DNA from: a virus
Reading direction: 5' to 3' (one strand)
IMG/VR virus record: IMGVR_UViG_3300031652_000003
Coordinates: 1-55,785 of that record
Length of the DNA: 55,785 nt
Within the stretch, counting starts at the first letter, position 1. Every line of letters starts with the position of its first letter. Made by a program: the position numbers and the translations under genes. A model generated the notes under the pieces. That model did no database searches. It saw only the letters and a program-made list of their open reading frames with translations, and had not been told where the DNA came from. Below, piece after piece: positions 1,383 through 51,223 of this stretch.

Positions 1383-1400
1383 ACAACAAGCGAATAAATA
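1383..1400 (+). repeat. Start-associated repeat, partial copy
   Basis: ACAACAAGCGAATAAATA matches the 5' half of the dispersed early-gene repeat. The GTACG stem-loop half is missing, with only GGTAC nearby. It lies between the stop at 1367 and the ATG at 1446. Confidence 0.7.
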
Positions 1401-1445
1401 AAAACAAAAAAGGTACATAGTAATAATTTTAAAATATTTTTAGAG

Positions 1446-1778
1446 ATGGAAAATTTAAAACACAATTTAAGAAAACAGATTTGCATGGAAGTAGATGCAA
1501 AAAACATTGATGGTAAAACGGCAGCAAGACTGCTTGAATCTATTAATAATTTGTATGATGACAAATTAAAGAAATTAGAACATCATAGGGATACAACGAT
1601 AGGTTTATGGGCATTTGATTGTGCCCCTAAACAATTAATTGAAAAATTTGTAAATAGCCAAAACGATGCTTGTAGTTTATTTACGGAAGACGTTGATAAA
1701 CTAATAAAAGAGTGGGAGAGTTTTTGTAATAATAAAAATATAATCGAATCACCATTTTTTCAAATAAAAGAATATTAA
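1446..1778 (+). CDS. Hypothetical protein
   Basis: 110 residues, ATG start preceded by TTTTTAGAG. Mostly helical and charged, with no membrane segment or zinc motif. Residues 20-50 look like a short coiled-coil helix. Eleven bases separate it from the next gene, so the two are probably co-transcribed. Function unknown. Confidence 0.6.
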   Translation: MENLKHNLRKQICMEVDAKNIDGKTAARLLESINNLYDDKLKKLEHHRDTTIGLWAFDCAPKQLIEKFVNSQNDACSLFTEDVDKLIKEWESFCNNKNIIESPFFQIKEY

Positions 1779-1788
1779 CTAAAAAGAC

Positions 1789-2124
1789 ATGAAAAAAATA
1801 GAAAAACTCCCTAAATGGGAATACGAAAAAGCAAAGCAGATTGTTTCAGAATACGAAGCTCAATTCTCTTTATCTTTTGTTAAAGGGCATTTTTCTATTA
1901 ATGATTTAGAAATCTATTCAGAATCAATTAGCGTTCCTAAATTAACTGAAAAGATATTTGATGAGCGATGTTGTTGTGTATTAGAACAAGAATTGAATAA
2001 GCGAGTAAACGGCGTTGAATGGGCTAATACTGATGATATGGGGCATTTGGTTATAAGCTTTTACAGAAGAACAGTAACAGATGAAGATATCAAAGCTGTT
2101 ATTGACTCTTTAAATGCCCTTTAA
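1789..2124 (+). CDS. Hypothetical protein
   Basis: 111 residues, acidic, with a CCC triplet near residue 62. The stop TAA lies inside the gene-end motif TTTAACGGTT, which is common after early genes here. No family recognised. Confidence 0.6.
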   Translation: MKKIEKLPKWEYEKAKQIVSEYEAQFSLSFVKGHFSINDLEIYSESISVPKLTEKIFDERCCCVLEQELNKRVNGVEWANTDDMGHLVISFYRRTVTDEDIKAVIDSLNAL

Positions 2125-2192
2125 CGGTTAATTTATGTTGTCGTGGCTGCCATCAAAAAGCTACACAATTTAAAACAAATAAAAACTTAGAT

Positions 2193-2885
2193 ATGAGTAC
2201 AGAAAATTCAAATACCAAACAGCCACACACTACAGATAGTATTATGCTTTCGGTGGTTAAAGTCGATTTTTCAAAACTTATCGGTAATAAATATCCACTT
2301 GAAACTAAAATGGCAATATTGGACTGGATGCTTAAGACAGGCAAGGGGTTTGACCACCAACACGGATGGAATAGAAATGGGATTAATAAATCTTTACTTG
2401 ATTATTCAGCAAACAATCACAATACTCCTGTTTGTTTGCCAAAAAACAAAGATTATAATTTATTTTTTGATGCCTTATTTGCAAGAGCTGTTTATGCACA
2501 AGAAAATAAACCTCTAAAAAAATGGAGAGAAAAGGAATCCGTTAAGCCAAACAAGTATCGTATGTTAAAATTTAACGATGCGGTTCCAGTATGTGAGCAA
2601 AAATATTTTTCATGGCTTATTGGAGATATTTTTAAGTTTGATGGAAAGCTTCTGAAAAAGAAATTACATCATCCTGAATATTTAAACCGAACCGAACCAA
2701 AAATACTCTGGATATCAATTTCCACAATTGGAAATGGTTGGATGGTTCAATATCAATTTTCATTTAAAGAATATAATTATGAACCAGGTTGGACAAATGG
2801 TTATCATCAAAATGAAAATGAATCTATTTGGAAATTTCTAAAACGCAGCTATGATGAATTATGTACTGTCATAGCTAAAACATAA
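2193..2885 (+). CDS. Hypothetical protein, 230 aa
   Basis: Larger than its neighbours, with a soluble composition rich in Trp, Lys and Tyr. The first 15 residues are polar and probably disordered. I recognise no motif. The stop codon forms part of TAACGG, followed by a TGTATG/CATACA hairpin and a copy of the dispersed repeat. Confidence 0.6.
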   Translation: MSTENSNTKQPHTTDSIMLSVVKVDFSKLIGNKYPLETKMAILDWMLKTGKGFDHQHGWNRNGINKSLLDYSANNHNTPVCLPKNKDYNLFFDALFARAVYAQENKPLKKWREKESVKPNKYRMLKFNDAVPVCEQKYFSWLIGDIFKFDGKLLKKKLHHPEYLNRTEPKILWISISTIGNGWMVQYQFSFKEYNYEPGWTNGYHQNENESIWKFLKRSYDELCTVIAKT

Positions 2886-2892
2886 CGGTTTA

Positions 2893-2928
2893 TGTATGGA
2901 AAGCATACAACAAGCGAATAAATACCAT
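2893..2928 (+). repeat. Gene-end hairpin plus start-associated repeat
   Basis: TGTATG (2893-2898) and CATACA (2904-2909) form a hairpin with a 5-nt loop. This leads directly into ACAAGCGAATAAATACCAT (to 2928). The GTACG stem is replaced by AT-rich sequence. The next start codon is at 2958. Confidence 0.7.
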
Positions 2929-2957
2929 ATAAAAAAATATTAACTAAAAATAATGAT

Positions 2958-3077
2958 ATGAAAAGAATGAAACTTTATAATCGGAAACAAACAATTAGAG
3001 CTATGAAAGTAGCTTTTATTACACTCATAGTTATTATAGCTGCCGTTCTTATTTTAATAAATTGCTCTTCTTTTTAA
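2958..3077 (+). CDS. Small single-pass membrane protein
   Basis: 39 residues: a basic N-terminus (MKRMKLYNRKQ) followed by a hydrophobic segment (about residues 17-35) ending LINCSSF. It could be a tail-anchored peptide, or a mini-lipoprotein if Cys36 is lipidated. It sits in line between two co-oriented genes, downstream of a dispersed repeat. Inner-membrane location is inferred. Confidence 0.55.
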   Translation: MKRMKLYNRKQTIRAMKVAFITLIVIIAAVLILINCSSF

Positions 3078-3114
3078 CTTATGATAATATTTGTTAAACT
3101 ATAATCAAAAAAAC

Positions 3115-3330: not shown

Positions 3331-3380
3331 GATGTACCTAGGATTATGAAAAAGCAGCAATTTACCAATATTTTAATAAC

Positions 3381-3481: not shown

Positions 3482-3633
3482 TTAAAGAAAACAATGAGAT
3501 ATTAATTTAAAACTTGAGCATTTAAAATGGAATCCAGAGGCTGATTTTTTAAAGCCAATGATTGAAAGAAGAAAAACAGAATTAACTCAGTTGCAAGAAA
3601 GATTAGATTACTTATTTGAAAAAACTTGTTAAA

Positions 3634-3957
3634 ATGGGAGCAGGAGGAAAAAGAGAAGGAGCGGGGCGCAAGCCTTGTTCCGATAAAAAACAAACAGTTG
3701 CTTTATATATAGAAACTTCAATTATTAACGCACTTGGTGGCCTTGAAAGCACAAAGCAAATCCTTTATAGTTTTGCAAAAACTGAGGCGGGTTGGGAAAA
3801 GAATAAGAATACTTGTACTAAATCTTATGAATGCGTTATTGACCAACAAAGTGATCTGCTAAAGGCTTGGCTGGTATGGAGATTAAAGCATCCGTATAGT
3901 GATTTCAGCACACAGGATTATGATATAGGAGAATTTTTAAAAGCCTATAATGATTAG
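3634..3957 (+). CDS. Putative DNA-binding protein with GAGRKP motif
   Basis: 107 residues from ATG 3634, chosen over the in-frame TTG at 3616. The N-terminus MGAGGKREGAGRKP is the Gly-Arg motif found at the start of many small phage DNA-binding and terminase-small-like proteins. It is followed by a short helical domain with no catalytic motif. It is the first gene behind the strong promoter at 3474, which makes a regulatory role plausible. Confidence 0.6.
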   Translation: MGAGGKREGAGRKPCSDKKQTVALYIETSIINALGGLESTKQILYSFAKTEAGWEKNKNTCTKSYECVIDQQSDLLKAWLVWRLKHPYSDFSTQDYDIGEFLKAYND

Positions 3958-4689: not shown

Positions 4690-4747
4690 TGAAATTTTAA
4701 GCGGCTTACTTTTACCGCATGTTAGCAAATCGTAAAGCGAACGGATT

Positions 4748-5047
4748 ATGAGCAAGAAATTATATTTTAAGGATGGCGATGATGAAAAATGTTTCCAATT
4801 AAGCTACTTTAAATGGCTACTTGACTATGATAACTTAGATGAAATTACTGTGTGTGAAGCGCAACCGCAAGATGTAGAAGGTTTCTTTTGGTGTAGGGAA
4901 TACGAAACTGCTATGGATAAAAACGAAGGTGGTTGCGGGTGGAGTTGCAAAGGATACTTACCTCGAAATGGTTTTAATGGTTGCTGTAAACATTACTCAC
5001 TTAAATTTTATGAACCGACATGTAAATGTTTAACGATACGCAAGTGA
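4748..5047 (+). CDS. Small Cys-rich protein
   Basis: 99 residues with about nine cysteines, including CGWSC, GCCKH and TCKC near the C-terminus. This suggests metal binding. Its last codons overlap the gene-end hairpin ATACGC/GCGTAT (5036-5053) that precedes a full copy of the dispersed repeat. Family not recognised. Confidence 0.6.
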   Translation: MSKKLYFKDGDDEKCFQLSYFKWLLDYDNLDEITVCEAQPQDVEGFFWCREYETAMDKNEGGCGWSCKGYLPRNGFNGCCKHYSLKFYEPTCKCLTIRK

Positions 5048-5100
5048 GCGTATGTTTGCTAACAAGCGAATAAATACCACGTACGAACACGTACAGTAAA
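5036..5100 (+). repeat. Gene-end hairpin plus full start-associated repeat
   Basis: The hairpin ATACGC/GCGTAT overlaps the preceding stop codon. GCTAACAAGCGAATAAATACC then runs from 5058, followed by the stem GTACG-AACA-CGTAC and an A-rich tail. The next ATG is at 5140. Confidence 0.85.
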
Positions 5101-5139
5101 AAATATTTTGGTTTAAAAAACTCAAAAACAAAAATAAAG

Positions 5140-5418: not shown

Positions 5419-5440
5419 TATGTGTAGCCTTTTATTGCCT

Positions 5441-5456
5441 ACAACGCGAATAAATA
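5441..5456 (+). repeat. Start-associated repeat, short copy
   Basis: ACAACGCGAATAAATA without the stem-loop half. It precedes the small gene at 5488. Confidence 0.65.
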
Positions 5457-5487
5457 TTTTAGAATTTATTTTAAAACTCAAAAAACT

Positions 5488-5625: not shown

Positions 5626-5940
5626 ATGAAACGAATTTATATAAGTGGAAAAATAACAGGTTTAGACACTCTTGAAGCAGCAAGAAAGTTTCAAGATGCA
5701 GAACATTACCTAATCATGAATTATGATAACGTAGAGATTGTGAATCCTATGAGAAAAGTACCTCATAAAAAAGAAAAGACGTGGGAACAATGCATGATTG
5801 GAGATATAAGCTTATTGTTTGGATGCGATACTATTTATATGCTTGATAATTGGGAAAGTTCGAAAGGAGCAAGAATAGAATGTAGTATAGCAAAAGAAAT
5901 GAGTAAGAATATATTATTTCAAAGTGCGTTGGGAAATTAA
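5626..5940 (+). CDS. DUF4406 nucleoside deoxyribosyltransferase-like
   Basis: 104 residues. ISGKITG at residues 6-12, NPMRK, WEQCMIGDISLLFGCD near residue 65, and W(E)SSKGARIE follow the DUF4406 order, a Rossmann-like family related to nucleoside 2-deoxyribosyltransferases. The family is common in phages and probably acts on nucleotides or nucleotide sugars, but its substrate is not established. Length is normal for the family. Confidence 0.8.
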   Translation: MKRIYISGKITGLDTLEAARKFQDAEHYLIMNYDNVEIVNPMRKVPHKKEKTWEQCMIGDISLLFGCDTIYMLDNWESSKGARIECSIAKEMSKNILFQSALGN

Positions 5941-5970
5941 CGCTAAATCTAAATTAATACAGTACGAATT

Positions 5971-6225
5971 ATGAAAAAGATAGATAAAATATTTGATGAC
6001 CTACATTACGAGCTGATAACTGAGAAGCAAGCAAAACAGCAAGTGTTGGATTTATTTAGTATTAGCGGTTGTTACTCAATAACATTTGGTAGGGACTTGA
6101 AATGTAAAGTAAAAGTTACAAATGGTGCACCAGAGGTTGAAGCCGCCATGAATGGTTGGGGCGACAATATAAGTTTAAGCGATATTTCAGTAGATAAACT
6201 GCAATTACCGCTAACACGCGAATAA
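5971..6225 (+). CDS. Hypothetical protein
   Basis: 84 residues. The last codons (LTRE-stop) are encoded by the first part of the dispersed repeat (CTAACACGCGAATAA), so the repeat invades the coding region. No recognisable domain. Confidence 0.6.
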   Translation: MKKIDKIFDDLHYELITEKQAKQQVLDLFSISGCYSITFGRDLKCKVKVTNGAPEVEAAMNGWGDNISLSDISVDKLQLPLTRE

Positions 6226-6248
6226 ATACCACGTGCGATTACGTACAG
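6210..6248 (+). repeat. Start-associated repeat overlapping a gene 3' end
   Basis: GCTAACACGCGAATAAATACC supplies the upstream stop codon. The stem GTGCG-ATTA-CGTAC follows, in which a G-U pair replaces A-U, so pairing is kept despite the change. The next start is at 6299. Confidence 0.85.
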
Positions 6249-6298
6249 TGGGTAAAATAAATAATGATAATAAAATGGAAAAGAATTAAATATAAAAC

Positions 6299-6792: not shown

Positions 6793-7629
6793 ATGAACGA
6801 TAAAAAAAAGGGGAGGCCAATTGGTATATTATATAATGACCATTTCCAAAATTCAAAGAAATATGGAACTCCGAAAGCGCAATTAATTATTGCTGATGTA
6901 CCATATAATTTAGGCAATAATGCCTATGCAAGTAATCCAGCTTGGTATAAAGATGGAGACAATAAAAATGGTGAAAGCGATCTTGCAGGAAAGGAGTTTT
7001 TTGATACTGACAAAAATTTTAATCCTGCTGAATTTATGCACTTTTGTAGTAAGATGCTAAGACCTGAACCAAAGGAAAAAGGACAAGCACCTGCAATGCT
7101 TTTATTTTGTGCTTTTGACCAGCAAATGTATTTTATAGAATTGGCTAAAAGATATGGATTAAAAAACCACATCAATTTAGTATTTCGAAAAAACTTTTCA
7201 GCTCAGGTTTTAAAAGCAAACATGAAAATTGTAGGTAATTGTGAATATGGATTGTGTTTATACCGGGAAAAGCTGCCAAAATTTAACAATAAAGGCAAAA
7301 TGATATTTAACTGTATTGATTGGGAGAAAGATCCAAATACAGTTAAGAAATTACACCCAACTCAAAAACCTATTGGATTATTGAAAAGATTAATTGAAAT
7401 ATTTACAGATGAAGGAGAGGTAATAATAGACCCTTGCGCAGGTAGTGGTAGTAGTTTAGTGGCGGCTATCCAATGTAATAGAAAAGCATATGGTTTTGAG
7501 ATAAAGAAAAATTTTTATACTGATGCTAATAACTGGATAAATGAAACATTGCAAGATAAATTAGATATTGAGCGATATGGATTTGCTAAAACAAGAATCG
7601 AAAAAGAAGGTGCAACTTTATTTTCATAA
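6793..7629 (+). CDS. DNA methyltransferase, beta-class N4/N6 (MTase 1)
   Basis: 278 residues. Motif IV is DVPY (35-38) instead of the usual DPPY. HPTQKP is at about 188, and the SAM-binding motif I DPCAGSGS is at about 213. The order IV-target region-I defines the beta class. It probably methylates adenine N6 or cytosine N4 to protect phage DNA from restriction. Its initiation region, AAATTGATTAAATGAACGA, is shared with MTase 2 at 54798. No cognate endonuclease is nearby, so it looks like an orphan enzyme. Confidence 0.85.
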   Translation: MNDKKKGRPIGILYNDHFQNSKKYGTPKAQLIIADVPYNLGNNAYASNPAWYKDGDNKNGESDLAGKEFFDTDKNFNPAEFMHFCSKMLRPEPKEKGQAPAMLLFCAFDQQMYFIELAKRYGLKNHINLVFRKNFSAQVLKANMKIVGNCEYGLCLYREKLPKFNNKGKMIFNCIDWEKDPNTVKKLHPTQKPIGLLKRLIEIFTDEGEVIIDPCAGSGSSLVAAIQCNRKAYGFEIKKNFYTDANNWINETLQDKLDIERYGFAKTRIEKEGATLFS

Positions 7630-8132: not shown

Positions 8133-8357
8133 ATGAATAAAGCAAAATCAGGAACCCAGACAGATGGCAAAGAACTAGCTAAGCAATGTGCTTTACATGT
8201 TGTTAGTGAGAGTAATTTGTTTGAATGCCCTGCGTGTGATCAAGTAGCATGTGAGGTTGTTGAAGAATTTATAAGCAAGGCAAACGAAAAAAGAAGCTAC
8301 GATATAGATGTTACGCACTGCGTTTGTAGAAATTGTGGTCATAGTTGGTGGGATTAA
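8133..8357 (+). CDS. Zinc-ribbon small protein
   Basis: 74 residues with CPAC (residues 33-36), then CVCRNC with HSWWD at the end, a classical two-knuckle zinc ribbon. Possibly nucleic-acid binding. It precedes a full start-associated repeat. Confidence 0.65.
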   Translation: MNKAKSGTQTDGKELAKQCALHVVSESNLFECPACDQVACEVVEEFISKANEKRSYDIDVTHCVCRNCGHSWWD

Positions 8358-8365: not shown

Positions 8366-8410
8366 GCTAACAAGCGAATAAATACCATGTACAATTTCGT
8401 ACATTAAAAA
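8366..8410 (+). repeat. Full start-associated repeat
   Basis: GCTAACAAGCGAATAAATACC is followed by GTAC-AATTTC-GTAC and an A-rich tail ending eight bases before the ATG at 8418. Confidence 0.85.
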
Positions 8411-8417
8411 CTAAAAC

Positions 8418-9379: not shown

Positions 9380-10151
9380 AATAAGATGTAGTGCGATTGG
9401 CAAAATAATGGCTGGAAATATAGGTCTTACTGCTAATCAAGAAATAGATTTGCAAACACTGTCTGAAAAACCAACCTTAACTGCTAAGCAGGAAATAAAA
9501 TTAAACGAACTTAAGCATAAAAAAGCAAATCCTGAGTTACCTGAAACAATGAAATCATATTGTAAATTATGGCTGAAAGAGCAAATTTATAATAGAGGTG
9601 TACATTTCAGCAATAAATATACCGACAAGGGTAATGTGATGGAAAATGATAGCATTGATTTCATTGCTAAGATGCTTGATTATGGTATGTTAATGAAAAA
9701 CAATACGGAGTTTGAGAACGATTACATTATTGGAACTCCAGATATCATACTACCTGACTGCGTTATTGACGCTAAAAACTCATGGGATTTTGCAACATTT
9801 CCATTACTCGAAGATAAGCCAACAACAAAGGATTATCCGTGGCAATTACAAGGTTACATGGATCTAACAAATCATAAGTATGCGAAACTGTGCTATGTAT
9901 TGTCGAACACTCCTGATCATTTAATTGAGCGAGAAGCAAGAATATTCACAATGGATAATGGATATGAAGAATTGGATGCAGCTACCTACAAGGAAGTGTA
10001 TGATAGAATGAATTATGATGATATAGATGATAAGCTCCGAATAAAAACGTTTGAGTACGAAAGAGACCAAGATGCGATTAATGAAGTTTACGAGCGCGTC
10101 AAGTTGTGTCGTAAGTATATTGATTCTTTAATTAAAAAGTTGCCAAAATGA
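9351..10151 (+). CDS. YqaJ-type PD-(D/E)XK exonuclease
   Basis: 266 residues. GTPDII with Asp131 and IDAKNSW with Asp140 and Lys142 form the PD-D-x-K catalytic core. GNVMEND upstream supplies the usual Glu, and YPWQLQGYMDL is the conserved helix after the core. Expected to resect double-stranded ends for phage recombination or replication. Start 9351 lies within the preceding gene, and ATG 9366 is an alternative. Operon context with the OB-like gene fits a two-component recombination system. Confidence 0.8.
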   Translation: MKNYSMKVFKIRCSAIGKIMAGNIGLTANQEIDLQTLSEKPTLTAKQEIKLNELKHKKANPELPETMKSYCKLWLKEQIYNRGVHFSNKYTDKGNVMENDSIDFIAKMLDYGMLMKNNTEFENDYIIGTPDIILPDCVIDAKNSWDFATFPLLEDKPTTKDYPWQLQGYMDLTNHKYAKLCYVLSNTPDHLIEREARIFTMDNGYEELDAATYKEVYDRMNYDDIDDKLRIKTFEYERDQDAINEVYERVKLCRKYIDSLIKKLPK

Positions 10152-10186
10152 GCGTAAGAATAGAAATAGACGAACGCCCGGGTTAA
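10148..10186 (+). pseudogene. Micro-ORF, possibly frameshifted
   Basis: Begins ATGA on the exonuclease stop and encodes only MSVRIEIDERPG. Removing one G from the GGG run at 10180-10182 extends the frame to a 21-codon peptide ending before 10221. This may be a sequencing error, a decayed gene, or nothing. Confidence 0.3.
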
Positions 10187-10220
10187 ACTGGCTAATGAAA
10201 AATCTAAACATTGAAAAGTA

Positions 10221-10670
10221 ATGGCAAAAACTAAAAATTATTTATTAGTAAAAAGGGGTGAAAATTTAGTACCTTTAAGTACTGAAGATGGTTTAGCTAT
10301 AGCAGGTTTAAAAGAAGGTGAAATGGTTGCTTGTCTTATTGGTGATGTTAGGGAAGTGTGGAGACATAGAAAGTACTTTAAGCTTCTCAAAGAAGTAATC
10401 AACCATATGCCAGAAGAATTATCTGATAAATACCCCAAGCCTGAAAACCTTTTGGATGAATTGAAGTTGCAAATGGGTTATTATAAAAAACATTACACAT
10501 TGTCAGGTAGAGAAATTTACAAGCCAGATTCAATAAGTTTTGAATCTATGGGTGAAAAAAAATTCATTGAGTTTGTAAATGATTCTAAAAATTTAATTTT
10601 GAAGTATTTTTTAGTCGGCATAAGTGTTGAGCAATTTGATAAAAATTTTATGAGTTTAATATTCGGATAA
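10221..10670 (+). CDS. DUF1367-like protein
   Basis: 149 residues. LVPLSTEDG near the start, HRKYFKLL near residue 54, and KPDSISFESMGEKKFIEFV near residue 100 follow the DUF1367 order seen in lambdoid phages. There it also sits in the recombination and nin region. Biochemical role unknown. The next gene follows after only 2 bases. Confidence 0.65.
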   Translation: MAKTKNYLLVKRGENLVPLSTEDGLAIAGLKEGEMVACLIGDVREVWRHRKYFKLLKEVINHMPEELSDKYPKPENLLDELKLQMGYYKKHYTLSGREIYKPDSISFESMGEKKFIEFVNDSKNLILKYFLVGISVEQFDKNFMSLIFG

Positions 10671-11396: not shown

Positions 11397-11624
11397 ATGG
11401 CAGGTTGTGAAAAATGTTGGGGTGATGCTTATATGAGAACATTAAGTGACCCGACGAAAAACCAGCATGAACATTATGTTGATCTGCTAGAAGAAAGATA
11501 TAATACACCATGTTCAGCTGAGGAACAAGCAGGTAACGATGCTGACTTTTGTCCTAAATGCGAAAGGAATACAGTACATCAACACACACACAAGTGCGTG
11601 ATATGTGAGTGGAGTAGCAAGTAA
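11397..11624 (+). CDS. Cys/His-rich small protein
   Basis: 75 residues with CEKC at the N-terminus, FCPKC at residue 53 and CVIC with nearby His near the end, suggesting one or two zinc sites. The family resembles other small Cys-rich phage proteins without known role. It is followed by an attC-like hairpin. Confidence 0.6.
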   Translation: MAGCEKCWGDAYMRTLSDPTKNQHEHYVDLLEERYNTPCSAEEQAGNDADFCPKCERNTVHQHTHKCVICEWSSK

Positions 11625-11630
11625 TTAATA

Positions 11631-11735
11631 CTAACGTTGAGCGTATGGTTTCGTAAGCCATGCACCAACGATTCAAATTTAGCAATAACTTCACTGGCTT
11701 ATGAACTATACGCATTGTTAGCGTTTCGTTTTTGA
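11631..11735 (+). repeat. attC-like long hairpin (CTAACG...GTTAGC)
   Basis: CTAACG (11631-11636) and GTTAGC (11717-11722) close a long imperfect hairpin whose inner arms are AGCGTATGGTTTCGTAAGCC (11640-11659) and TGGCTTATGAACTATACGC (11695-11713). TGTTAGCGTTTCGTTTT at 11716-11732 recurs almost unchanged at 51151-51167. The outline resembles integron attC sites, but the GTTRRRY core is not met. Confidence 0.6.
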
Positions 11736-11756
11736 GCGGTGGCAAAACAGGATAAA

Positions 11757-12044
11757 ATGACAAGAGAAGAACATTTATTAGTGATACTTGGCGAGGAGTG
11801 TAGCGAAGTTGCGAAAGAAACAGCTAAAGCACTTAGGTTTGGGTTGGATGACAAAGAACCCGGACAGGATAAAACCAACAGGCAAAAAATAGCAACTGAG
11901 TTCAACGACCTTTTTGCAGTTGTGAGAATACTTATTGATGACGGAATACTTAATGATAAAGAAGTTATTGTCGTTGAGCAAATGGAAGCTAAAATGCAAA
12001 AAGTAGAGAAGTACTTAAAGTATTCAAAGAGTGTTGGCAAATGA
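11757..12044 (+). CDS. MazG-like NTP pyrophosphohydrolase
   Basis: 95 residues from ATG 11757, with GTG 11739 as a 6-residue alternative. GEECSEVAKETAKAL and then IATEFNDLFAVV supply the ExxE and ExxD metal-binding helices of the all-alpha MazG/dUTPase superfamily. Expected to hydrolyse NTPs or an alarmone, and phage copies are thought to adjust host nucleotide state. Single-domain length is normal for phage versions. Confidence 0.75.
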   Translation: MTREEHLLVILGEECSEVAKETAKALRFGLDDKEPGQDKTNRQKIATEFNDLFAVVRILIDDGILNDKEVIVVEQMEAKMQKVEKYLKYSKSVGK

Positions 12045-12046
12045 AC

Positions 12047-12090
12047 GCTAACAAGCGAATAAATACCACGTACGATTTCGTACGCTAAAA
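12047..12090 (+). repeat. Full start-associated repeat
   Basis: GCTAACAAGCGAATAAATACC is followed by the perfect stem GTACG-ATTT-CGTAC and an A-rich tail, just before the NinG-like gene at 12103. The best-formed hairpin of the family. Confidence 0.9.
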
Positions 12091-12102
12091 ACTAAACAAT
12101 AT

Positions 12103-12555
12103 ATGCACGCAGACACAATAAAAAAATATGCTAATAGAAATTATAACTGGTTGCACGAGAAGGCTAAGTTTTACTTTCACAGATTCATAAGACTGAGAGA
12201 TTGTGATGACTACGGAAACTCAATTTGCATAGCAACTGGTAAGCCGATAAGATATGGGGTCAATCTTCAGGCCGGACATTACTTTTCAGCGGGAAAATAC
12301 AAAGCTCTGGAATTCAATGAAGATAACGTTCATGGACAGAGTTTACAGGATAATTATTATGGGCATGACTTTGCATCTTACGCTAGGAATCTAAAAAATA
12401 AAATAGGGGTTGAAAGATTTGAAAAATTAGAACAATTAGCTGCTATTTCAAAAAGAACTCCATTTAAGCAAGACAGATACTTAATAATTGATATAATTGA
12501 AACTTACAAAGTGAAGGTAAAAAAGTTATCAAAAGAAAAAATGTTTAAAGTATGA
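12103..12555 (+). CDS. ninG: NinG/Rap-like recombination nuclease
   Basis: 150 residues. RLRDCDDYGNSICIATGKPI (a zinc-type Cys pair), then QAGHYFSAG, NEDNVHGQSLQDN and YARNLKNKIG follow the NinG (lambda Rap) order. Rap is a structure-specific nuclease acting on recombination joints. Its position near the exonuclease and DUF1367 genes fits. The stop codon lies within the operator palindrome of the next promoter. Confidence 0.8.
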   Translation: MHADTIKKYANRNYNWLHEKAKFYFHRFIRLRDCDDYGNSICIATGKPIRYGVNLQAGHYFSAGKYKALEFNEDNVHGQSLQDNYYGHDFASYARNLKNKIGVERFEKLEQLAAISKRTPFKQDRYLIIDIIETYKVKVKKLSKEKMFKV

Positions 12556-14225: not shown

Positions 14226-14303
14226 ATGGCGAAAAAAGTTTTTATAAAGTACCAGCATATTGAGAGATTATTTGTATATTTACAATATGATTGGAATATA
14301 TAA
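14226..14303 (+). pseudogene. Severed 5' end of the RNA ligase gene
   Basis: 25 codons. MAKKVFIKYQHIERL matches the present ligase start KKYMHIERF in the core K-Y-x-H-I-E-R, then runs off into the homing endonuclease gene. It looks like the original ligase N-terminus cut off by insertion of the GIY-YIG gene. Confidence 0.65.
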
Positions 14304-14907
14304 AATTATAAATACAGCAAATGGCAAGTATTACATAGGCAGTTCTATTAACATAGATTACCGAATAAAATCACACTTTAAATGTTTAAGAGGTCAGTAT
14401 CATAAAAATACACATCTACAAAATGCGTTTAATAAATACGGTGAAAAATCATTTGTTTCAGAAATAATTGAAATCTGCAATAAAGAGGATTTACTTAAAT
14501 TAGAAACATCGCATATATTAAGTGCAGAATCTTACAAGCGTAAAATAGGGTACAACATACTAATTAATGCAGAACATTCAAGGTTAGGCATAAAGCATAC
14601 ACAAGAAGCTAAAGATAAAATATCAGAAGCTTTTAAGGGTAAGAAATTAAGTAAAGAACATAGAGACAAAGTTTGTCAAAATTTAATAAATGGTAGTTTG
14701 TTAACAGACGAACAGAAAAAAAGAATTAGCAATAAAAATAGGAGATTTAATGAGTTGGATATAAATAATATTATAGACCTGTATAAAATAGGAAAAACAC
14801 AGCGAGAAATAAGCAATATCTATAAATGCAGCAAGACAACTACCAATAAGTTATTTAAACAATTATTTGAATCAGGAACATTAAAAAAACGAAAGAATGG
14901 AGTTTAA
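14287..14907 (+). CDS. GIY-YIG homing endonuclease
   Basis: 206 residues from ATG 14287, with a TTG extension to 14260 overlapping the ligase fragment. GIY at 3-5 and YIGSS at 16-20 give the catalytic GIY-YIG module. HTQEAKDKISEAFKGKKLS is a NUMOD3 DNA-binding repeat, and a helix-turn-helix (KTQREISNIYKCSKTTTNKL) ends the protein. It is a free-standing mobile gene inserted at the 5' end of the RNA ligase and overlaps its new start by 11 bases. Confidence 0.9.
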   Translation: MIGIYKIINTANGKYYIGSSINIDYRIKSHFKCLRGQYHKNTHLQNAFNKYGEKSFVSEIIEICNKEDLLKLETSHILSAESYKRKIGYNILINAEHSRLGIKHTQEAKDKISEAFKGKKLSKEHRDKVCQNLINGSLLTDEQKKRISNKNRRFNELDINNIIDLYKIGKTQREISNIYKCSKTTTNKLFKQLFESGTLKKRKNGV

Positions 14908-15826
14908 GAAATATATGCACATAGAGCGTTTCGGTACTACAGAAGTACAAAATATTGAATTAGGAGAATGTTATATTTTCCCTAAAATAGATGGAACAAA
15001 TTCTAGTATATGGTTAGATGAAAACGGAGAGCTACAAGCAGGAAGCCGTAAACGGCATTTAAGAATAGATGATGATAACGCTGGTTTTTGTAAATGGGCT
15101 AAAGAACAACCTAATTTACTGGCTTATTTAAAAGAAAATCCAACGCATAGACTGTTCGGTGAATGGCTTGTGCCTCATAGTTTAAAAACATACCGCGATG
15201 ATGCATGGAGACGTTTTTATGTGTTTGACGTTGCTTTAGATAAAGATGTAAGCGAAGTTAAGCACGAAGGAGATAGCTTGCTTAAATATTTGCATTACCA
15301 CGAATACAAACCTTTAATTGAAAAACATTTTATTGATTATATACCACCATTGGCAATTATTGAACGTGCAAGCTACGAACAATTTATTAAACAGCTTGAA
15401 AAGAATGTGTTTTTAATTGAGGATGGCAAAGGAGCTGGAGAAGGTATTGTAATTAAGAACTACGATTTTTCTAACCGATATGGACGGCAAACTTGGGCTA
15501 AAATTGTAACCTCTGAGTTTAAAGAAAAACACAGCAAAACAATGGGTGCGCCAAAAGTTGAAGGTAAAAAGATGGTTGAAGAAGAAATTGCAAAGAAATA
15601 TGTAACTACTGCACTTTGCGAGAAAGTGAAAGCTAAAATTGAGCTTGATAACGATGGGTTTAGTAGTAAACAAATACCAAGGCTCTTAAACACTGTTTAT
15701 TATGATGTGGTAAAAGAGGAAAGTTGGAATTTTGTAAAAGAGTTTAAGAACCCGACTATTAATTATAAGACACTACAACACTTTATTTTTGCACAAGTGA
15801 AAATATGTGTTCCGATATTATTTTAA
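14897..15826 (+). CDS. RNA ligase (nucleotidyltransferase fold)
   Basis: 309 residues. Motif I is KIDGTN with adenylated Lys30. LFGEWL (Glu89) is motif IIIa-like, EGIVIK (182-187) motif IV and WAKIV (200-204) motif V. This fits Rnl2-like or DRB0094-like RNA ligases that repair cut tRNA or other RNA. The start codon lies inside the homing endonuclease 3' end, and the N-terminal codons duplicate, in recoded form, the severed piece at 14226. The C-terminal 70 residues are not family-defining. Confidence 0.85.
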   Translation: MEFKKYMHIERFGTTEVQNIELGECYIFPKIDGTNSSIWLDENGELQAGSRKRHLRIDDDNAGFCKWAKEQPNLLAYLKENPTHRLFGEWLVPHSLKTYRDDAWRRFYVFDVALDKDVSEVKHEGDSLLKYLHYHEYKPLIEKHFIDYIPPLAIIERASYEQFIKQLEKNVFLIEDGKGAGEGIVIKNYDFSNRYGRQTWAKIVTSEFKEKHSKTMGAPKVEGKKMVEEEIAKKYVTTALCEKVKAKIELDNDGFSSKQIPRLLNTVYYDVVKEESWNFVKEFKNPTINYKTLQHFIFAQVKICVPILF

Positions 15827-15880: not shown

Positions 15881-15896
15881 ACTGAATAAATACCAC
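15881..15896 (+). repeat. Degenerate start-associated repeat
   Basis: ACTGAATAAATACCAC keeps the AATAAATACCAC core only. It is one element of the 317-bp gap 15827-16143, which also holds a promoter, a terminator and an operator-promoter. Confidence 0.5.
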
Positions 15897-29947: not shown

Positions 29948-30847
29948 ATGGCAGAATTAGGAAGTTGTCCTACTATTTTGGACGGAATGGGAAGCGGTGG
30001 ATGCATCACATCTCCTATTATCAAGTTTATTACTGGATTTATTCCAGCGCTAGAATCTCAACAGTATGATACTTTTGCAGATTTTAATAGTGAATCGGTT
30101 AATAAAACTCAGATTGTATCTGGAGATTTATTGCCGATTGGGATTTTTGATGAAATAGAAAACGTTTCCACAGAAGAATTAACTTCTGAAACATCAAGGG
30201 GAACAAAACTATTTCATCGTAATGGAAAATCTGGATTTATTGGAAAACTTTTATTATCTCCAGACCAAAATCGTATTTTGCAATCTTACGACCAAAATAT
30301 AAGAGCAGGTTATATAATGGATGATGAGGGCAATAGGTTAGGTACGTCAGCGGATGGGATAATAGTCAAGCCTCTGTCTGTGTCGTATTTCAAAGTAAAA
30401 CCTATGGATTTACCATTCTCGGCGGATGGTTCCGCATGGTCTATGATTGAGGTTCAATTTGAATTTGTTGATGAAATTAACAAACAACCAGCCTATTCTA
30501 TATCAGACGAGTTAGATTGGATTCCAACAAAAGTTCTAAAACCGCTTACTAAGATAACCTTATCGCCCGGAGCGATGGCGACTTTTGCTTTTGTGTGTTC
30601 GTTCGCTTATGTCGACCCAACAACCGGTAAGTCAGTGCCTTTAACAGGTCTTGGAACAGATGGAGCTGAGCTTACGGTTCTTGATCAAGCTGGGGCTGCC
30701 GCTACGGTAACAGTCGCTCCTGTAGTTGGTACTCCAGGCGATTATACAATAACAGACAGTGGGGCAGGCATGACTAGCGGTTCAATTAAGCTCAATGCGA
30801 CTGTAGATTCATTTTATTACTCTGACACAACAACTGTATCTGCTTAA
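29948..30847 (+). CDS. Major tail tube protein
   Basis: 299 residues. The N-terminal domain (to about 205) is beta-rich with conserved turns. The C-terminal 90 residues (GAELTVLDQAGAAATVTVAP) look like an Ig-like or BACON-type add-on domain exposed on the tube. Position before the chaperone and tape-measure genes supports the call. Confidence 0.7.
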   Translation: MAELGSCPTILDGMGSGGCITSPIIKFITGFIPALESQQYDTFADFNSESVNKTQIVSGDLLPIGIFDEIENVSTEELTSETSRGTKLFHRNGKSGFIGKLLLSPDQNRILQSYDQNIRAGYIMDDEGNRLGTSADGIIVKPLSVSYFKVKPMDLPFSADGSAWSMIEVQFEFVDEINKQPAYSISDELDWIPTKVLKPLTKITLSPGAMATFAFVCSFAYVDPTTGKSVPLTGLGTDGAELTVLDQAGAAATVTVAPVVGTPGDYTITDSGAGMTSGSIKLNATVDSFYYSDTTTVSA

Positions 30848-32153: not shown

Positions 32154-35009
32154 ATGGCAAACGATGTATTTCAAGATGTAGATGATGCGGTAAAAAAATT
32201 GTTACCTCAATTGGAAGCGGTTCAAAAAGCTATAAAAGGCGTTTCAACTGAATTAATAGCTCTTGATAAAACAACAAAAACAACTGCCAAAAACCAATCC
32301 GACTTAAAACAAAAAACATCTCAATTATCGGCGGTAGATAAACAGCTTATTAAATTAGATAAACAGCTTGAGACAGCTGAAGCTCAGTTAACTGAAGAAT
32401 ATAAGCAGGTACAAAAGGCTGTGCTGAAGAAGAAAGAAGCTGTTAAGCAATCTAACGACGAATTAAAAAAACAAGCTGGAATAGTTAAAAAAGCTTCAAC
32501 TGAGTTAACATCTCTCGAAAAAACAACAAAAAATGTCGCTAAAAGCCAATCCGATTTAAAGGCGAAAAGCTCTCAATTATCGGATGTAGATAAAGAGCTT
32601 ATTAAGCTTGATAAGCAAATGGCTATTGCAGAAACTAAGCTTACAAATGAATATAAGCAGGTACAAAAAGCATTAATTAGAAAACAAGAAGCGCAAAAAA
32701 AGGCTGCGGCTGCCATAAGAGAAGAAGTCACAGGTGCAAAGGCTGCAAAAAAAGCTGCACAAGATCAAAGGAAAGCAGCTCAAGAGTTAAATAGAGCGCA
32801 CGCCGAAGCTATAAAAATAAACAACAAACTAAACCAAACACAAAAAAAGTCAAGCGGGTACTTTAAAAATATGGCCAAAACGATGCTTGCTACAGGGGCG
32901 GCATTATTCGGAATCAACAAATTATTGAGTTCGTTCAATAAACTCATAAGCAATTCTATTAAAAACGCAGATAAGCAACTAAAGGCCGAACGAATGCTTT
33001 TAGTTGCTTTGGATGGCCGTGAAGACGCACAAAAAAAACTTATATCTCAAGCGCAGCAATTACAAAAAGAAACCTTATTTGGCGATGAAGAAACAATAAA
33101 AGCTCAAGCGTTAATAGCTGCATTCGTTAAAGAAGAAGATCAGATAAAAAAAATAATTCCGTTAGTTCAAGATTTGGCTACAGCTAAAGGTATGGGTTTA
33201 GCCGGAGCCGCTGATTTAGTTAGTAAAACACTAGGAAGCAGTACCAACGCTTTAGCAAGATACGGCATACAGGTTGAGGGTAGTGTAGGAGGAACGCAGC
33301 GTCTTGAGTCGTTAGCCAGAAGTTTAAGCAATGCATTTGGCGGCCAAGCTAAAGCTGCGGCTGAAGCTGGAGCAGGAGGATTAACGCAACTTAAAAATGT
33401 GCTTGGAGATGTTTCCGAGAACATGGGTAAAAAATTACTCCCTTTTATAAATAGAGTATCTAAAGCTTTAATTAATAAATTAAGCCCTCAAGAAAAAACT
33501 GTTAATTTATATAAACTTGAAAATAAGGAATTGACCGCATTGTTTGGCAGTCTAAAAAACACAAACTTATCTCAAGGAGCAAGAAATAAATTATTAACAG
33601 AGGTAAATACAAAGTATGGAAAATATTTACCAAATCTACTAACCGAAAAATCTACTTTAGAAGATATAGAAAAAGCCGAAAAGGGAATAAATAAACAATT
33701 AAAACTTAAAGTAATACAACAGGCTTTTCAAGAAGAAATTAACGAGTTATTAAAAGAGCAGTTGAATGCTCAAGAATCACTTATAAATAACGAAATAGCC
33801 TTAGATAAAATATCACAAGATAGGTTAACTGTTATAAGTGCAGGTGGAGCGGCTGCACTAGAACTTCAAAAAGACTTAATAAAAACTACAAATGGTTTAT
33901 TTCAAGCTCAAGTAGATAATAACGATAAAGAAGTAAAAAGTACTGAGGATAAATTCAAAAGAATAGGGGAGCTTTATGGTATCGCATTTTCAGAAATAGA
34001 GGCAGCTATGCAAGCTGAAACCGAAGTAGCTAATGTCGAGAATAACAAACAAGTAGAATCTACCAAAAAGAAATACAAAACTCAAGTTGAAATAGATAAT
34101 GAAACTAAGCAAGAGAGATTAAAAAACTATCAAGATTTCTTAAATAAAAGAGAAATCGCAGATCAACAGGCTGATCAAGATGCAATAAAACGAGCCGAAG
34201 TGTTAGCTCAAGAAAGACTAAGAATACTTGAAGAAGAAACAGAAGAAGCAACAGAACTAAGAAAAAAAGCTAAAGAAGAAGAATTAAAGCTAGAAAAAGA
34301 ATGGGAAGATGCTAAACTAGCAATAAAAGAGGCTGGATTAGACGCCGCCGGTAAAATTGCAAGTGATAGATTAATAGCAGGAGTAGATGAAAAATTAAAT
34401 GCATTTTTAGCCGAGAATGAAGCTGAACAAAAAATACTGGATGATAGGTTGGATAAAGGTAAAATATCTGAATCTGAATATCTGAGAGAAACTAAGAAAT
34501 TAAAGGATAAGGCTAAGCTTGAAGAAATTAAAGCCGAAAAAAAGAAAGCTCAATACGAGAACTTAATCAACACTCTAGTAGCGATAACAAAAGCTCTGCC
34601 AAATATTCCTCTATCTATAGCTATCGGAGCCGCAGGATTAGCTAACGGAATAGCCATTGCAGCTGAACCAGTACCTAAATTTAGACTTGGTACAGATAAT
34701 TTTGAGGGAGGTTTAGCTGATGTTCATACGGGAGAAATTATTAAATTAGCCGATGGTTCTATGTACGAAACTCCGGTAGGAGAGACAAGAATATACTTAC
34801 CTCCAGCCACAGATGTTATTCCGGCACATAAAGCTGAAACAATTATCAAAGAGAATAATTCTGGAGAAGAAATAAGTATACTAAAAAGTATTGACAGAAA
34901 ACTAAGCAAACAAAACAATAATATCCAAGCGACTTGGACGCATAAGGGATTAAAAGTAAGAGATTATAATAATAATATTGACAGAACGTATATTGGAAAA
35001 TACAGATAA
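32154..35009 (+). CDS. Tape measure protein
   Basis: 951 residues, the longest gene. The N-terminal 200 residues are coiled coil with an internal duplication of period 84 residues (unit 1 from about 30, unit 2 from about 114; both contain TELxxLxKTTK and EYKQVQKA). Ala/Gly-rich hydrophobic stretches lie at about 240-260 and 800-840, and long charged helices lie between. Sets tail length and enters the cell during injection. Confidence 0.9.
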   Translation: MANDVFQDVDDAVKKLLPQLEAVQKAIKGVSTELIALDKTTKTTAKNQSDLKQKTSQLSAVDKQLIKLDKQLETAEAQLTEEYKQVQKAVLKKKEAVKQSNDELKKQAGIVKKASTELTSLEKTTKNVAKSQSDLKAKSSQLSDVDKELIKLDKQMAIAETKLTNEYKQVQKALIRKQEAQKKAAAAIREEVTGAKAAKKAAQDQRKAAQELNRAHAEAIKINNKLNQTQKKSSGYFKNMAKTMLATGAALFGINKLLSSFNKLISNSIKNADKQLKAERMLLVALDGREDAQKKLISQAQQLQKETLFGDEETIKAQALIAAFVKEEDQIKKIIPLVQDLATAKGMGLAGAADLVSKTLGSSTNALARYGIQVEGSVGGTQRLESLARSLSNAFGGQAKAAAEAGAGGLTQLKNVLGDVSENMGKKLLPFINRVSKALINKLSPQEKTVNLYKLENKELTALFGSLKNTNLSQGARNKLLTEVNTKYGKYLPNLLTEKSTLEDIEKAEKGINKQLKLKVIQQAFQEEINELLKEQLNAQESLINNEIALDKISQDRLTVISAGGAAALELQKDLIKTTNGLFQAQVDNNDKEVKSTEDKFKRIGELYGIAFSEIEAAMQAETEVANVENNKQVESTKKKYKTQVEIDNETKQERLKNYQDFLNKREIADQQADQDAIKRAEVLAQERLRILEEETEEATELRKKAKEEELKLEKEWEDAKLAIKEAGLDAAGKIASDRLIAGVDEKLNAFLAENEAEQKILDDRLDKGKISESEYLRETKKLKDKAKLEEIKAEKKKAQYENLINTLVAITKALPNIPLSIAIGAAGLANGIAIAAEPVPKFRLGTDNFEGGLADVHTGEIIKLADGSMYETPVGETRIYLPPATDVIPAHKAETIIKENNSGEEISILKSIDRKLSKQNNNIQATWTHKGLKVRDYNNNIDRTYIGKYR

Positions 35010-46175: not shown

Positions 46176-46181
46176 TTGACT

Positions 46182-46223
46182 ACAACACGCGAATAAATAC
46201 ATATACGATTTTGTACATTAAAA
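46182..46223 (+). repeat. Full start-associated repeat
   Basis: ACAACACGCGAATAAATAC followed by TACG-ATTT-TGTA (stem kept by a G-U pair) and AAAATAAACTG before the ATG at 46241. Confidence 0.8.
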
Positions 46224-46240
46224 TAAACTGTAAAAAAATT

Positions 46241-47680: not shown

Positions 47681-47732
47681 GGCTAACGGTAAGAATAAAT
47701 GGGCGTTTTAATGCCATTTATTTATTGTTACC
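47681..47732 (+). repeat. Gene-end hairpin (GGCTAACGGTAA...GTTACC)
   Basis: GGTAAGAATAAATGG (47688-47702) and CCATTTATTTATTGTTACC (47714-47732) pair with one bulged segment. The GCTAACGG start is shared with the element at 13968. Confidence 0.6.
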
Positions 47733-47767
47733 AACTGCACGGTATTAACAACTAAAATTAAATTGAA

Positions 47768-48124
47768 ATGATATACTTAACGGTAATTAACACGATAGCG
47801 ATAATTTACATATTAACGCACAAACAATTTTCTATTCATAAAAACGAGACATTCTCAAACAATACGTTGTTAGGTTATGGTTTGTATTATAAGAACAAAA
47901 GGAGATTATATACACCCATAAGAAATGCAAGAAGAACAGAGCTTAACGAGGAAGTTCACAGGATGATAAATGACACAGTTAACAAGCATTACACAATAAG
48001 AGCTAAATTTAGCTGGATAAAAACCATAACCGATGCTGAGCAGTTCAGAAAAGACTATGAAGTAGTAGATAGAAAATTAGTTAACGAGCTTGTGGATAAC
48101 TTTAAATTGGAACACCAACAGTAG
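47768..48124 (+). CDS. Hypothetical protein with N-terminal membrane segment
   Basis: 118 residues. Residues 2-18 (IYLTVINTIAIIYILTH) are hydrophobic. The rest is basic, with RLYTPIRNARRTELNEEV. Followed by a full repeat copy. Confidence 0.5.
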   Translation: MIYLTVINTIAIIYILTHKQFSIHKNETFSNNTLLGYGLYYKNKRRLYTPIRNARRTELNEEVHRMINDTVNKHYTIRAKFSWIKTITDAEQFRKDYEVVDRKLVNELVDNFKLEHQQ

Positions 48125-48131: not shown

Positions 48132-48180
48132 GGTAACACGCGAATAAATACCATGTACGGTTTAGTACACTAAAACTAAG
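48132..48180 (+). repeat. Full start-associated repeat, twin of 51175
   Basis: GGTAACACGCGAATAAATACC, the stem GTAC-GGTTTA-GTAC, then ACTAAAACTAAG. Bases 48134-48192 match 51177-51235 at 58 of 59 positions, including the start codon and first codons ATGGAGAAA. Confidence 0.9.
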
Positions 48181-48183
48181 ATT

Positions 48184-48898: not shown

Positions 48899-48906
48899 TT
48901 ATTTGC

Positions 48907-48934
48907 GCTAACAAGCGAATAAACACACTAAAAC
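48907..48934 (+). repeat. Start-associated repeat without stem
   Basis: GCTAACAAGCGAATAAACACACTAAAACTT: the 5' half joins the ACTAAAACT tail directly, as if the stem-loop had been deleted. Confidence 0.75.
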
Positions 48935-48942
48935 TTAATACA

Positions 48943-49366: not shown

Positions 49367-49390
49367 AAAACTTTAAAATTACAATTGTCA

Positions 49391-49570: not shown

Positions 49571-49630
49571 ATTTTTTTGGCCATAAATTTTAACAAATGT
49601 AAATTTTTATTATTAATTAAAATTAAGATT

Positions 49631-49897: not shown

Positions 49898-49959
49898 TAA
49901 GAATAATAGCCAAAAAATAGCGAGAAACTTCTATAACCTCGCATAATTAACAAAGAGAT

Positions 49960-50016
49960 ATGAATGTAAAAACTATTGCAGACGTCTTCGACAAGGTAAA
50001 GGATAATGTGCTATAA
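49960..50016 (+). CDS. Micro-ORF, doubtful
   Basis: 18 residues, MNVKTIADVFDKVKDNVL, with the usual start context (AAAGAGAT before ATG). It could be a truncated gene start. No supporting overlap. Confidence 0.25.
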   Translation: MNVKTIADVFDKVKDNVL

Positions 50017-50094
50017 CAGTAACTTGTAAGTGTAGTTTGGGATTAAACCCACTACATGACCAAGATAGTAATAACTTAATAAATTGATATATAG

Positions 50095-50304
50095 ATGAAT
50101 AACGCAGCGAAACCCAAATTACATTTACAAAATGTTGTGCACCGTTTATTAAGGGTAGTTTTGACACCCCTTATAATTGTGACCATGTGCATAGTTGCTT
50201 TAAGTGCCGTAATTAGCTTACCAATTTGGATAGTGAGTGGCAAAACGATTATACCGTATGCTGTAAATTTAGCCCATAAACACATGGAATTAGCTTGGGA
50301 TTAA
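50095..50304 (+). CDS. Small membrane protein
   Basis: 69 residues: a basic N-terminus (KPKLHLQNVVHRLLR) and a hydrophobic stretch from about 23-48. Single or hairpin membrane insertion is inferred. Confidence 0.5.
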   Translation: MNNAAKPKLHLQNVVHRLLRVVLTPLIIVTMCIVALSAVISLPIWIVSGKTIIPYAVNLAHKHMELAWD

Positions 50305-50422
50305 ATGGTGCATAACGTATGGTTGTATAGTGTAGCGTGAATTACTCACTAAACTACAATTGAAAAGCTACTGTTAAAAATTATTTTTTAGGGAGGGTTT
50401 TTATTTTTTTTGTGTAAATAGT

Positions 50423-50451
50423 TTGTATTTAAAAAGTATTTACTATATTTG
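50423..50451 (+). promoter_or_regulatory. Bacteroidota-type promoter
   Basis: TTG (50423-50425), an 18-base spacer, TATATTTG (50444-50451), upstream of the gene at 50487. Confidence 0.7.
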
Positions 50452-50486
50452 TATAGCAATAATGCAGATAACTTTAAATTAAGATT

Positions 50487-50933
50487 ATGAAAACTTATTT
50501 AATAGCCAGAGCTAAAATTGAAGAAAGAGACTATAAAAAAGGATTTGACTCTATTGTGAATTTAGATTACATGGGTGCTTCTGAGTATGAATGGGGAGCA
50601 ATGCCAGAATCTCTAGTCAGAACTAGAAAGAACATTAACGATTACACTTATTTAGATGTACCAATTAAAAATATAAGCGTAACCGTATTTTGCCACAACG
50701 ATAATAAAAGCGATGTAAAAAAGTACTTAACAGAACTTGCTAACGGCAAAATGCGAACCAAGAACGGAAATCACTTTGATTGGTACGTACAAAACGAAAA
50801 GAAAAGTGATTTTACTTATGTTAGAGATAGGGTGAATTTTTGGTGGGACATTGAAAACGATTTGATGTTTTGGATTAAAAGCCCTGATTTTGAAATTAAG
50901 TTTAAGGATATTATTAAAGTAAAACCAGAATAA
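50487..50933 (+). CDS. Conserved phage protein of unknown function
   Basis: 148 residues. LDYMGASEYEWGAMPESL (residues about 27-44) is a block I know from many unannotated phage proteins. Later it has a Trp-rich RVNFWWDIENDLMFWI segment. Function not known. First gene after a good promoter and coupled to the RHH gene. Confidence 0.6.
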   Translation: MKTYLIARAKIEERDYKKGFDSIVNLDYMGASEYEWGAMPESLVRTRKNINDYTYLDVPIKNISVTVFCHNDNKSDVKKYLTELANGKMRTKNGNHFDWYVQNEKKSDFTYVRDRVNFWWDIENDLMFWIKSPDFEIKFKDIIKVKPE

Positions 50934-51091
50934 TGGCAACTAAGAAAGTAACTATTAGCTTAACTCAAGAACAACAAGACAAAGCTAAAGAAGATAGCAA
51001 AGCCATATTTGGCAAAGAAAACCTAAGTGGATATATTCAAATTCTTATCCAAAATGGTTTTGAAAAAACCAAAGAGCGTGGGCAAAAATAA
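50933..51091 (+). CDS. Ribbon-helix-helix regulator
   Basis: 52 residues. KKVTISLTQEQQDKAKEDSK then NLSGYIQILIQNG fit the RHH fold: an N-terminal DNA-contacting strand (VTISL) and two helices. RHH dimers bind short inverted or direct repeats, so it is a candidate binder of either the operator or the GTACG repeats. Starts on the previous stop (TAATG). Confidence 0.7.
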   Translation: MATKKVTISLTQEQQDKAKEDSKAIFGKENLSGYIQILIQNGFEKTKERGQK

Positions 51092-51112
51092 TTTTGGATT
51101 AACCCACTGAGC

Positions 51113-51156
51113 TTGATTAAATGAACGAAACAGCTATACACTATACAACGTGTTAG
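51113..51156 (+). other. Orphan copy of the methyltransferase start region
   Basis: TTGATTAAATGAACGA (51113-51128) is identical to the start regions of MTase 1 (6785-6800) and MTase 2 (54790-54805). Here the frame stops after 11 codons (MNETAIHYTTC). Possibly a remnant left by loss of a third methyltransferase gene. Confidence 0.45.
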
Positions 51157-51223
51157 CTTTTCGTTTTAATGAAAGCTAACACGCGAATAAATACCATGTA
51201 CGGTTTCGTACACTAAAACTAAG
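51150..51223 (+). repeat. Hairpin joined to full start-associated repeat
   Basis: GTGTTAGCTTT (51150-51160) and AAAGCTAACAC (51172-51182) are perfect 11-bp arms. The right arm is the first part of the repeat, which continues with GCGAATAAATACC, GTACG-GTTT-CGTAC and ACTAAAACTAAG. It shows how gene-end hairpin and start repeat can share bases. Confidence 0.9.

Follow-up and report, generated by a model that had tools for sequence, protein, structure and literature searches.

The window analysed here is a whole virus record of 55,785 nt (IMGVR_UViG_3300031652_000003), and the element in question is a dispersed intergenic repeat of its early genes, which consists of a left box ending in YAAC, the constant part CAmGCGAATAAATACC and, in some copies, a GTACG hairpin. 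These repeats are proposed to be attC-derived cassette joints that have spread through the early region and are used as intercistronic leaders, a reading to which we assign a probability of about 0.5. Judging from the sequence, derivation from an attC site of integron cassettes is the most likely origin of the repeat. Swap permutations, matched ends at three cassettes and adjoining attC-like sites lend real support to the suggestion of a preliminary description that the copies might be seams for gene exchange, whereas active recombination we infer only.

Copies and distribution of the repeat

About twelve sites had initially been counted and 11 of them stand. Sequence model R1 lists ten of these, the eleventh, at 1382, being contributed by model R2. 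The candidate at 15881 (ACTGAATAAATACC) was rejected, as it is devoid of the AACA-MGCG part and reaches an E-value of only 0.91 with R2. The 21-mer of the repeat gives eight matches at ≤3 mismatches in the window, as compared with 0.01 expected from shuffles. The copies are as follows:

1382–1445, + strand: copy 1, TACAAC type, no hairpin, extends to the ATG at 1446 (R2 E-value 0.014)
2906–2957, + strand: copy 2, TACAAC type, no hairpin
5058–5139, + strand: copy 3, hairpin 5081–5094
5439–5487, + strand: copy 4, CTACAAC, shorter by two bases, no hairpin
6210–6298, + strand: copy 5, hairpin 6233–6246
8366–8417, + strand: copy 6, hairpin 8389–8402 with broken closing pair
12047–12102, + strand: copy 7, hairpin 12070–12083, precedes a NinG/Rap-like gene
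46181–46240, + strand: copy 8, TACAAC, imperfect hairpin 46203–46216
48132–48183, + strand: copy 9, GGTAAC, hairpin 48155–48168
48907–48942, + strand: copy 10, short form, no hairpin
51175–51226, + strand: copy 11, hairpin 51198–51211

In agreement with the initial observation, all 11 copies lie on the + strand and the late operon is free of them, with none between 16 and 46 kb. The window carries an exact 127-bp direct repeat at its ends (1–127 and 55659–55785) and is therefore probably a circular or complete assembly; on the circular map all copies fall into a single early region running from 46 kb across the end to 12 kb. An ATG is found 25–78 nt downstream of AATAAA, and in nine of the 11 copies the upstream stop codon ends 14–32 nt ahead of it, the exceptions being 6210, where the stop lies inside the core, and 51175, where it is 95 nt away. 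The left box YAAC likewise closely follows the stop in nine of 11 copies.

The relative G001 (IMGVR_UViG_3300037124_000029), which has the late operon in common with the window, gene order included, and whose primase is 64% identical, harbours four copies. One belongs to the type found in the window and is situated among unrelated genes; the other three are of G001's own type, AACACGAGAATAAACRTA. In the 15 copies of the two phages (11 and four, respectively) a Y always precedes AAC, the full RYYY being present in only some of them. The core is nearly invariant across copies, while the adjoining stem and the flanks drift.

Recent duplication of adjacent genes does not explain the copies, for the only paralogues in the window at an E-value of 1e-4 are two methylase genes; 48132 and 51175 are the only pair whose shared sequence continues across the start codon (about 57 nt). 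Exact patterns of the window and G001 types had zero matches in other IMG/VR contigs, and closer fragments such as L108 (primase 70%) contained zero copies. A cellular origin was considered and discarded: GTDB genomes contain 26 exact matches, but these are scattered, on inspection have neither hairpin nor leader, and look like chance. A shorter pattern matched 87 viral sites, the majority of which look like chance occurrences in coding DNA, and a borderline model match in G009 (L241:1342-1381) was also judged to be due to chance. Each phage concerned (G000, G001, G008) has one private sequence type, much as attC sites are uniform within a sedentary integron.

Matched gene ends and adjoining attC-like sites

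At three places in the window the left box of the repeat is the exact complement of a GTT box located before the preceding gene (GTTACCAAC/GTTGGTAAC, GTTAGCGTT/AACGCTAAC and GTTAGCAAA/TTTGCTAAC), a match that is newly reported here. The variable bases agree site by site, the sole GGTAAC repeat following a GTTACC box. The genes with matched ends are:

4717–5068, + strand: cassette with matched ends, CGCATGTTAGCAAAT, gene 4748–5047, GTTTGCTAACAAGCG
11715–12056, + strand: cassette with matched ends, TTGTTAGCGTTT, gene 11739–12044, GAACGCTAACAA
47726–48141, + strand: cassette with matched ends, TGTTACCAACTGCAC, gene 47768–48124, GTGTTGTTGGTAACA

The gene at 11739–12044 was labelled MazG-like from reading alone and has zero Pfam matches. 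Together with one place in G001, where the match is 16 bp long and runs up to the copy near 53634 (in reverse-complement coordinates), there are four cases in which a cassette's own 5' core is complementary to the left box of the repeat. When the left arm of each copy was paired with 600 nt of upstream DNA, none of 10,000 swap permutations equalled the pairing at the copies' own sites, and with 180–200 nt the corresponding value was 0.0004–0.0007. Matched GTT/AAC ends scoring at least 22 were found for three of 14 repeat-followed genes versus none of the 189 other genes of the two phages (Fisher about 3e-4, by hand arithmetic), and their mean was reached in none of 300 permutations; since the scan thresholds were picked while viewing the data, all these p-values are guides only.

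Upstream of the same genes lie three attC-like structures:

4697–4726, + strand: degenerate attC-like hairpin, TTAAGCGG...CCGCATGTTAGC, R'' without C
11629–11723, + strand: attC-like site directly behind the stop at 11624, R'' being TACTAAC and R' GTTAGCG, stem containing unpaired bases
47681–47733, + strand: attC-like site soon after a stop, GGCTAACGGTAAGAATAAATGGGCGTTTTAATGCCATTTATTTATTGTTACC, of the same type as 30005–30056 of Polaribacter phage P12002L

The second and third of these show the R''/R' pairing, spacer, stem and position behind a stop codon that are characteristic of attC. The folding energy of 11629–11723 (top strand z −2.5) was equalled in one of 40 shuffled genomes, and its position after a stop adds weight. 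The GTT boxes of the cassettes at 11715 and 47726 are the R' ends of these two sites, and that of the cassette at 4717 ends the degenerate one; in each case the attC-like site is followed by one gene and then by the repeat. In integron cassettes, a cassette's own 5' core matches its own R'' box. Because of such matching, the succession of attC, gene and repeat is read as a cassette with the repeat as its 3' end. Another attC-like match, at 5938–6068, runs through a coding start and was left unused.

These hairpins are of types that recur in comparable phages (P12002L, G007, G008 and G022). The site at 11629–11723 shares TATGGTTTCGT...ATGAACTATA with P12002L at 32220, and the loop CGTTTTAATG of 47681–47733 is common to P12002L at 30005, G008 and G022. 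Qi et al. (2023, PMC9892861) described clusters of attC sites in virulent phages, including P12002L with its methylase cassettes, and of two P12002L sites that they tested, one underwent IntI1-mediated recombination with attI1. Our own scan of P12002L placed attC-like sites at 30005–30056, between methylase genes, and near 32220 and 38032. Among the relatives, attC-shaped intergenic repeats behind stop codons occur in G008 (GCTAACGTAGAAATAAAATGCGTTTTAATGCATTTTAATCGAATGTTA and several alike), G007, G009, G022 and Tenacibaculum phage JQ.

Origin of the repeat

From R'' onwards the repeat can be aligned, as GCTAAC-N4-GAATAAAT plus a terminal hairpin, to the left portion of the attC-like site at 47681, that is, with GCTAAC, a 4-base spacer, GAATAAA and the hairpin in the same layout. 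The L' and R' boxes are absent from all copies. Since R' is missing, the repeat itself is neither a working attC nor an attC by definition.

We suppose that the left box (RYYYAAC-like) would represent the 3' core of the preceding cassette, whose 5' end bears the GTT core that matches it, and that the constant part with its terminal GTACG hairpin would have descended from an attC site, of which it would represent the left two thirds. After loss of the L' and R' boxes, the A-rich start region of the next gene would directly follow. Copies of one phage-private type, whether accompanied by their genes or not, could then have spread across the early region, and cassette genes would thereby have come to lie in the early operon behind a 5' leader that was already in place. 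A leader role is suggested by the near invariance of the constant part over 11 copies, each ending at a start codon. Recombination might be performed by a host integron integrase, or might occur between copies by means of the phage's own enzymes; these are the candidate routes, as a search for a tyrosine recombinase encoded by the window phage found none, and relatives of a phage exonuclease and of the NinG/Rap resolvase are encoded.

Several observations, the lack of a recombinase among them, weigh against this origin. Of the 15 copies, about ten yielded no convincing matched box before the gene, and the best partner of the left arm falls within the upstream open reading frame (ORF) at 6210, at 8366 and at one copy of G001. 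RYYAAC is not enriched behind stop codons in general. The attC likeness of the constant part amounts to about 14 aligned bases, and a matching R' or GTT box within 260 nt downstream is absent for all 11 copies. Compared with shuffles, the bottom strands of the attC-like sites have only a modest folding advantage (z −1.0 for 11629 and −1.9 for 47681), and the attC-like site of G001 at 53359 has none (z −0.4). Finally, the constant part has been strongly conserved after the loss of R', which suggests a second function that is itself only supposed.

In an improbable variant, the phage would keep truncated attC-derived cores, private to each lineage, in many copies as a one-sided docking system that accepts cassettes between YAA and C (G and TT on the other strand), whereby every gene taken up would acquire an existing phage leader. 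An attI-like site read from the other strand would explain both the constant part and the missing R', but was rejected as a general explanation and is kept within the docking variant only, because the gene direction would be reversed.

Alternative explanations

The strongest rival of the attC-derived joint, clearly less probable yet possible, is a start-associated leader, i.e. an RNA element in the early polycistronic mRNA which helps the following gene to be translated or its message to mature. Under the same possible explanation a phage or host factor would recognise the element, and the matched boxes of a few cassettes would be a separate matter. The single orientation, the intercistronic location with an ATG at a limited distance, the nearly invariant core and the likeness of 48132 and 51175 through the start codon are all as expected of a leader. 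The host-type sigma factor promoter was considered for the repeat and dismissed, TTG-N17-22-TAnnTTTG or the TAnnTTTG box being absent from every copy; such promoters are elsewhere and few, and the copies therefore lie inside operons, which also favours a leader. However, the sharp left border at YAAC directly behind the stop and the variable distance to the start codon do not suit it, and the matched gene ends are left unexplained. Moreover, the known initiation determinants in Flavobacterium adjoin the start codon, such as the A at −3 (PMC6847099).

The hairpin and the tail also argue against a leader. As initially described, seven copies carry GTACG-N4-CGTAC or a near form. The claim that pairing is kept by G-U changes holds for 6210, but at 46181 a G-U pair stands beside a broken one (A.C), and the closing pair is broken in 8366 and 48132. 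In the seven copies 88% of the stem is paired and one double change occurs, which does not exceed shuffles; over all 15 copies only 59% is paired, the stem being mostly lost in G001. The pair counts show zero covariation beyond shuffles and no compensatory stem changes, and the hairpin is not supported as a conserved RNA element, although it may be real despite this lack of proof from conservation. The A-rich tail noted initially is present, but it is not special, as other genes of the window phage have it too. Rfam families gave zero matches in the window and tRNA genes were not found there; the structural-model search of Bacteroidota genomes covered four genomes.

That the dyad GTACG-N4-CGTAC marks a DNA binding site (an operator, or an accessory site of replication or recombination) is very unlikely. 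A symmetry that tolerates mismatches and a phage-private sequence speak for such a site, but strict co-orientation with genes and a position behind stops are unexpected of an operator, and the dyad is absent from four copies. The candidate binders would be the short protein encoded at 11–481 and a putative ribbon-helix-helix protein (3616–3957). The former contains a DnaA C-terminal DNA-binding domain and has relatives in G001 and G003.

In T7, early mRNA carries RNase III sites. By analogy, cleavage in the core might leave a 5' hairpin protecting each downstream message; the intercistronic position of the hairpin just 3' of the invariant core would suit RNA processing, but with a stem of 5–6 bp that is missing from four copies and does not covary, this explanation is very unlikely. 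Least likely of all are passive repeats, i.e. copied functionless intergenic DNA offering homology like the boundary sequences and promoter early stem-loops (PeSLs) of other phages, since the core stays invariant while stem and flanks drift, even though some pairs are near-identical over 50 nt, G001 has a window-type copy among unrelated genes and the exonuclease and resolvase genes are present.

Relation to known systems

The repeat belongs neither to attC nor to the start-associated sequences (SAS) of cluster K mycobacteriophages, with which it had been compared initially. SAS are 13 bp long (consensus GGGATAGGAGCCC), contain AGGAG and lie 3–7 bp before the start codon; together with their extended form (ESAS) they are dispersed in 11–19 copies, with inverted repeats upstream of the core (PMC3203893). 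The likeness holds for the layout, i.e. dispersed copies (11 in the window), one orientation, restriction to non-structural genes, association with starts, a group-private sequence and an inverted repeat in about half of the copies. It fails for the distance to the start (25–78 nt versus 3–7 bp), AGGAG, the side of the inverted repeat and the sequence, and a link to cassette ends is not described for SAS.

The phage attC sites and clusters of attC sites lacking integron-integrases (CALINs) of Qi et al. (2023, PMC9892861) are similar in that cassettes occupy the accessory region of a flavobacterial phage. P12002L in particular also has attC-like hairpins behind stops, lacks an integrase and shares the types found at 11629 and 47681. 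They differ in that the window repeat consists of R'', L'' and hairpin only, without R', occurs 11 times and runs into the leader of the following gene. Sedentary chromosomal integrons also have uniform attC sites, among them the Vibrio cholerae repeats (VCR); with these the window repeat has in common a type-specific uniform sequence per genome and the matched 5' core and R'', although here the carrier is a phage genome without integrase and the repeat has no R'.

The PeSLs of T4-type phages, which Arbiol et al. are said to have presented in 2010 as mobile regulatory cassettes, are reportedly intergenic stem-loop units thought to aid gene shuffling. The window repeat is unlike them in having attC-like parts instead of an early promoter.

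Genome context and other repeats

On protein comparison, TerL of the window is 42% identical to that of Tenacibaculum phage JQ and the primase 41% identical to that of Cellulophaga phage phi10:1; judged by such comparisons, the virus groups with phages of flavobacteria (Bacteroidota). End repeats also occur in G001 (127 bp) and G008 (144 bp), these assemblies being probably circular or complete. In the window, a GIY-YIG/NUMOD3 homing endonuclease gene (14260–14907) overlaps an RNA ligase gene (14897–15826). One further feature adjoins the repeat:

51150–51182, + strand: inverted repeat GTGTTAGCTTTTCGTTTTAATGAAAGCTAACAC, ends within repeat copy 11; its left border carries TATACAACGTGTTAGC, which is likewise the end of an attC-like site of G007

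G008 (L238-L240) carries uniform attC-like sites of a private type near 7084, 7744, 18454, 19554, 23178, 53310 and 54764, and a tyrosine recombinase is not detectable in it. In the cultured phage JQ (L107), a half-attC, YAACGTAnTTGTATA or CCTAACGTTTAGCTATTATTAGTAG, is found between stops and ATGs at 345, 1484, 4328 and 38921, alongside whole attC-like sites near 712–850 and 2151, in parallel to the repeats of the window. Other repeats of the relatives include near-identical promoter units of ∼70 bp (TTTGCAACATATTCAAAAAAAGTCCGTATATTTGARTATAGAAACAACAT) before early genes of G001, at 8161, 10377, 50319 and 2663 (minus strand), the last being shorter than the other three. In G007 (12090–12440) and G008 (9880–10300) 36-bp tandem repeats form one open frame encoding a GDQIVEGYQRVE-type repeat protein, and G022 has a private intergenic repeat, about ACCGCTCATCCCAATTTT, in five copies (16037, 17608, 23228, 26751 and 33218).

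Implications

Sites of the attC kind are known in phages from few cases. The links to P12002L and to the cultured phage JQ make the attC-derived origin of the repeats testable. If the repeats are such joints and serve as leaders too, they would reveal a route by which a phage may take up integron genes and build them into its early operon, and would give a sequence mark for such captured genes.

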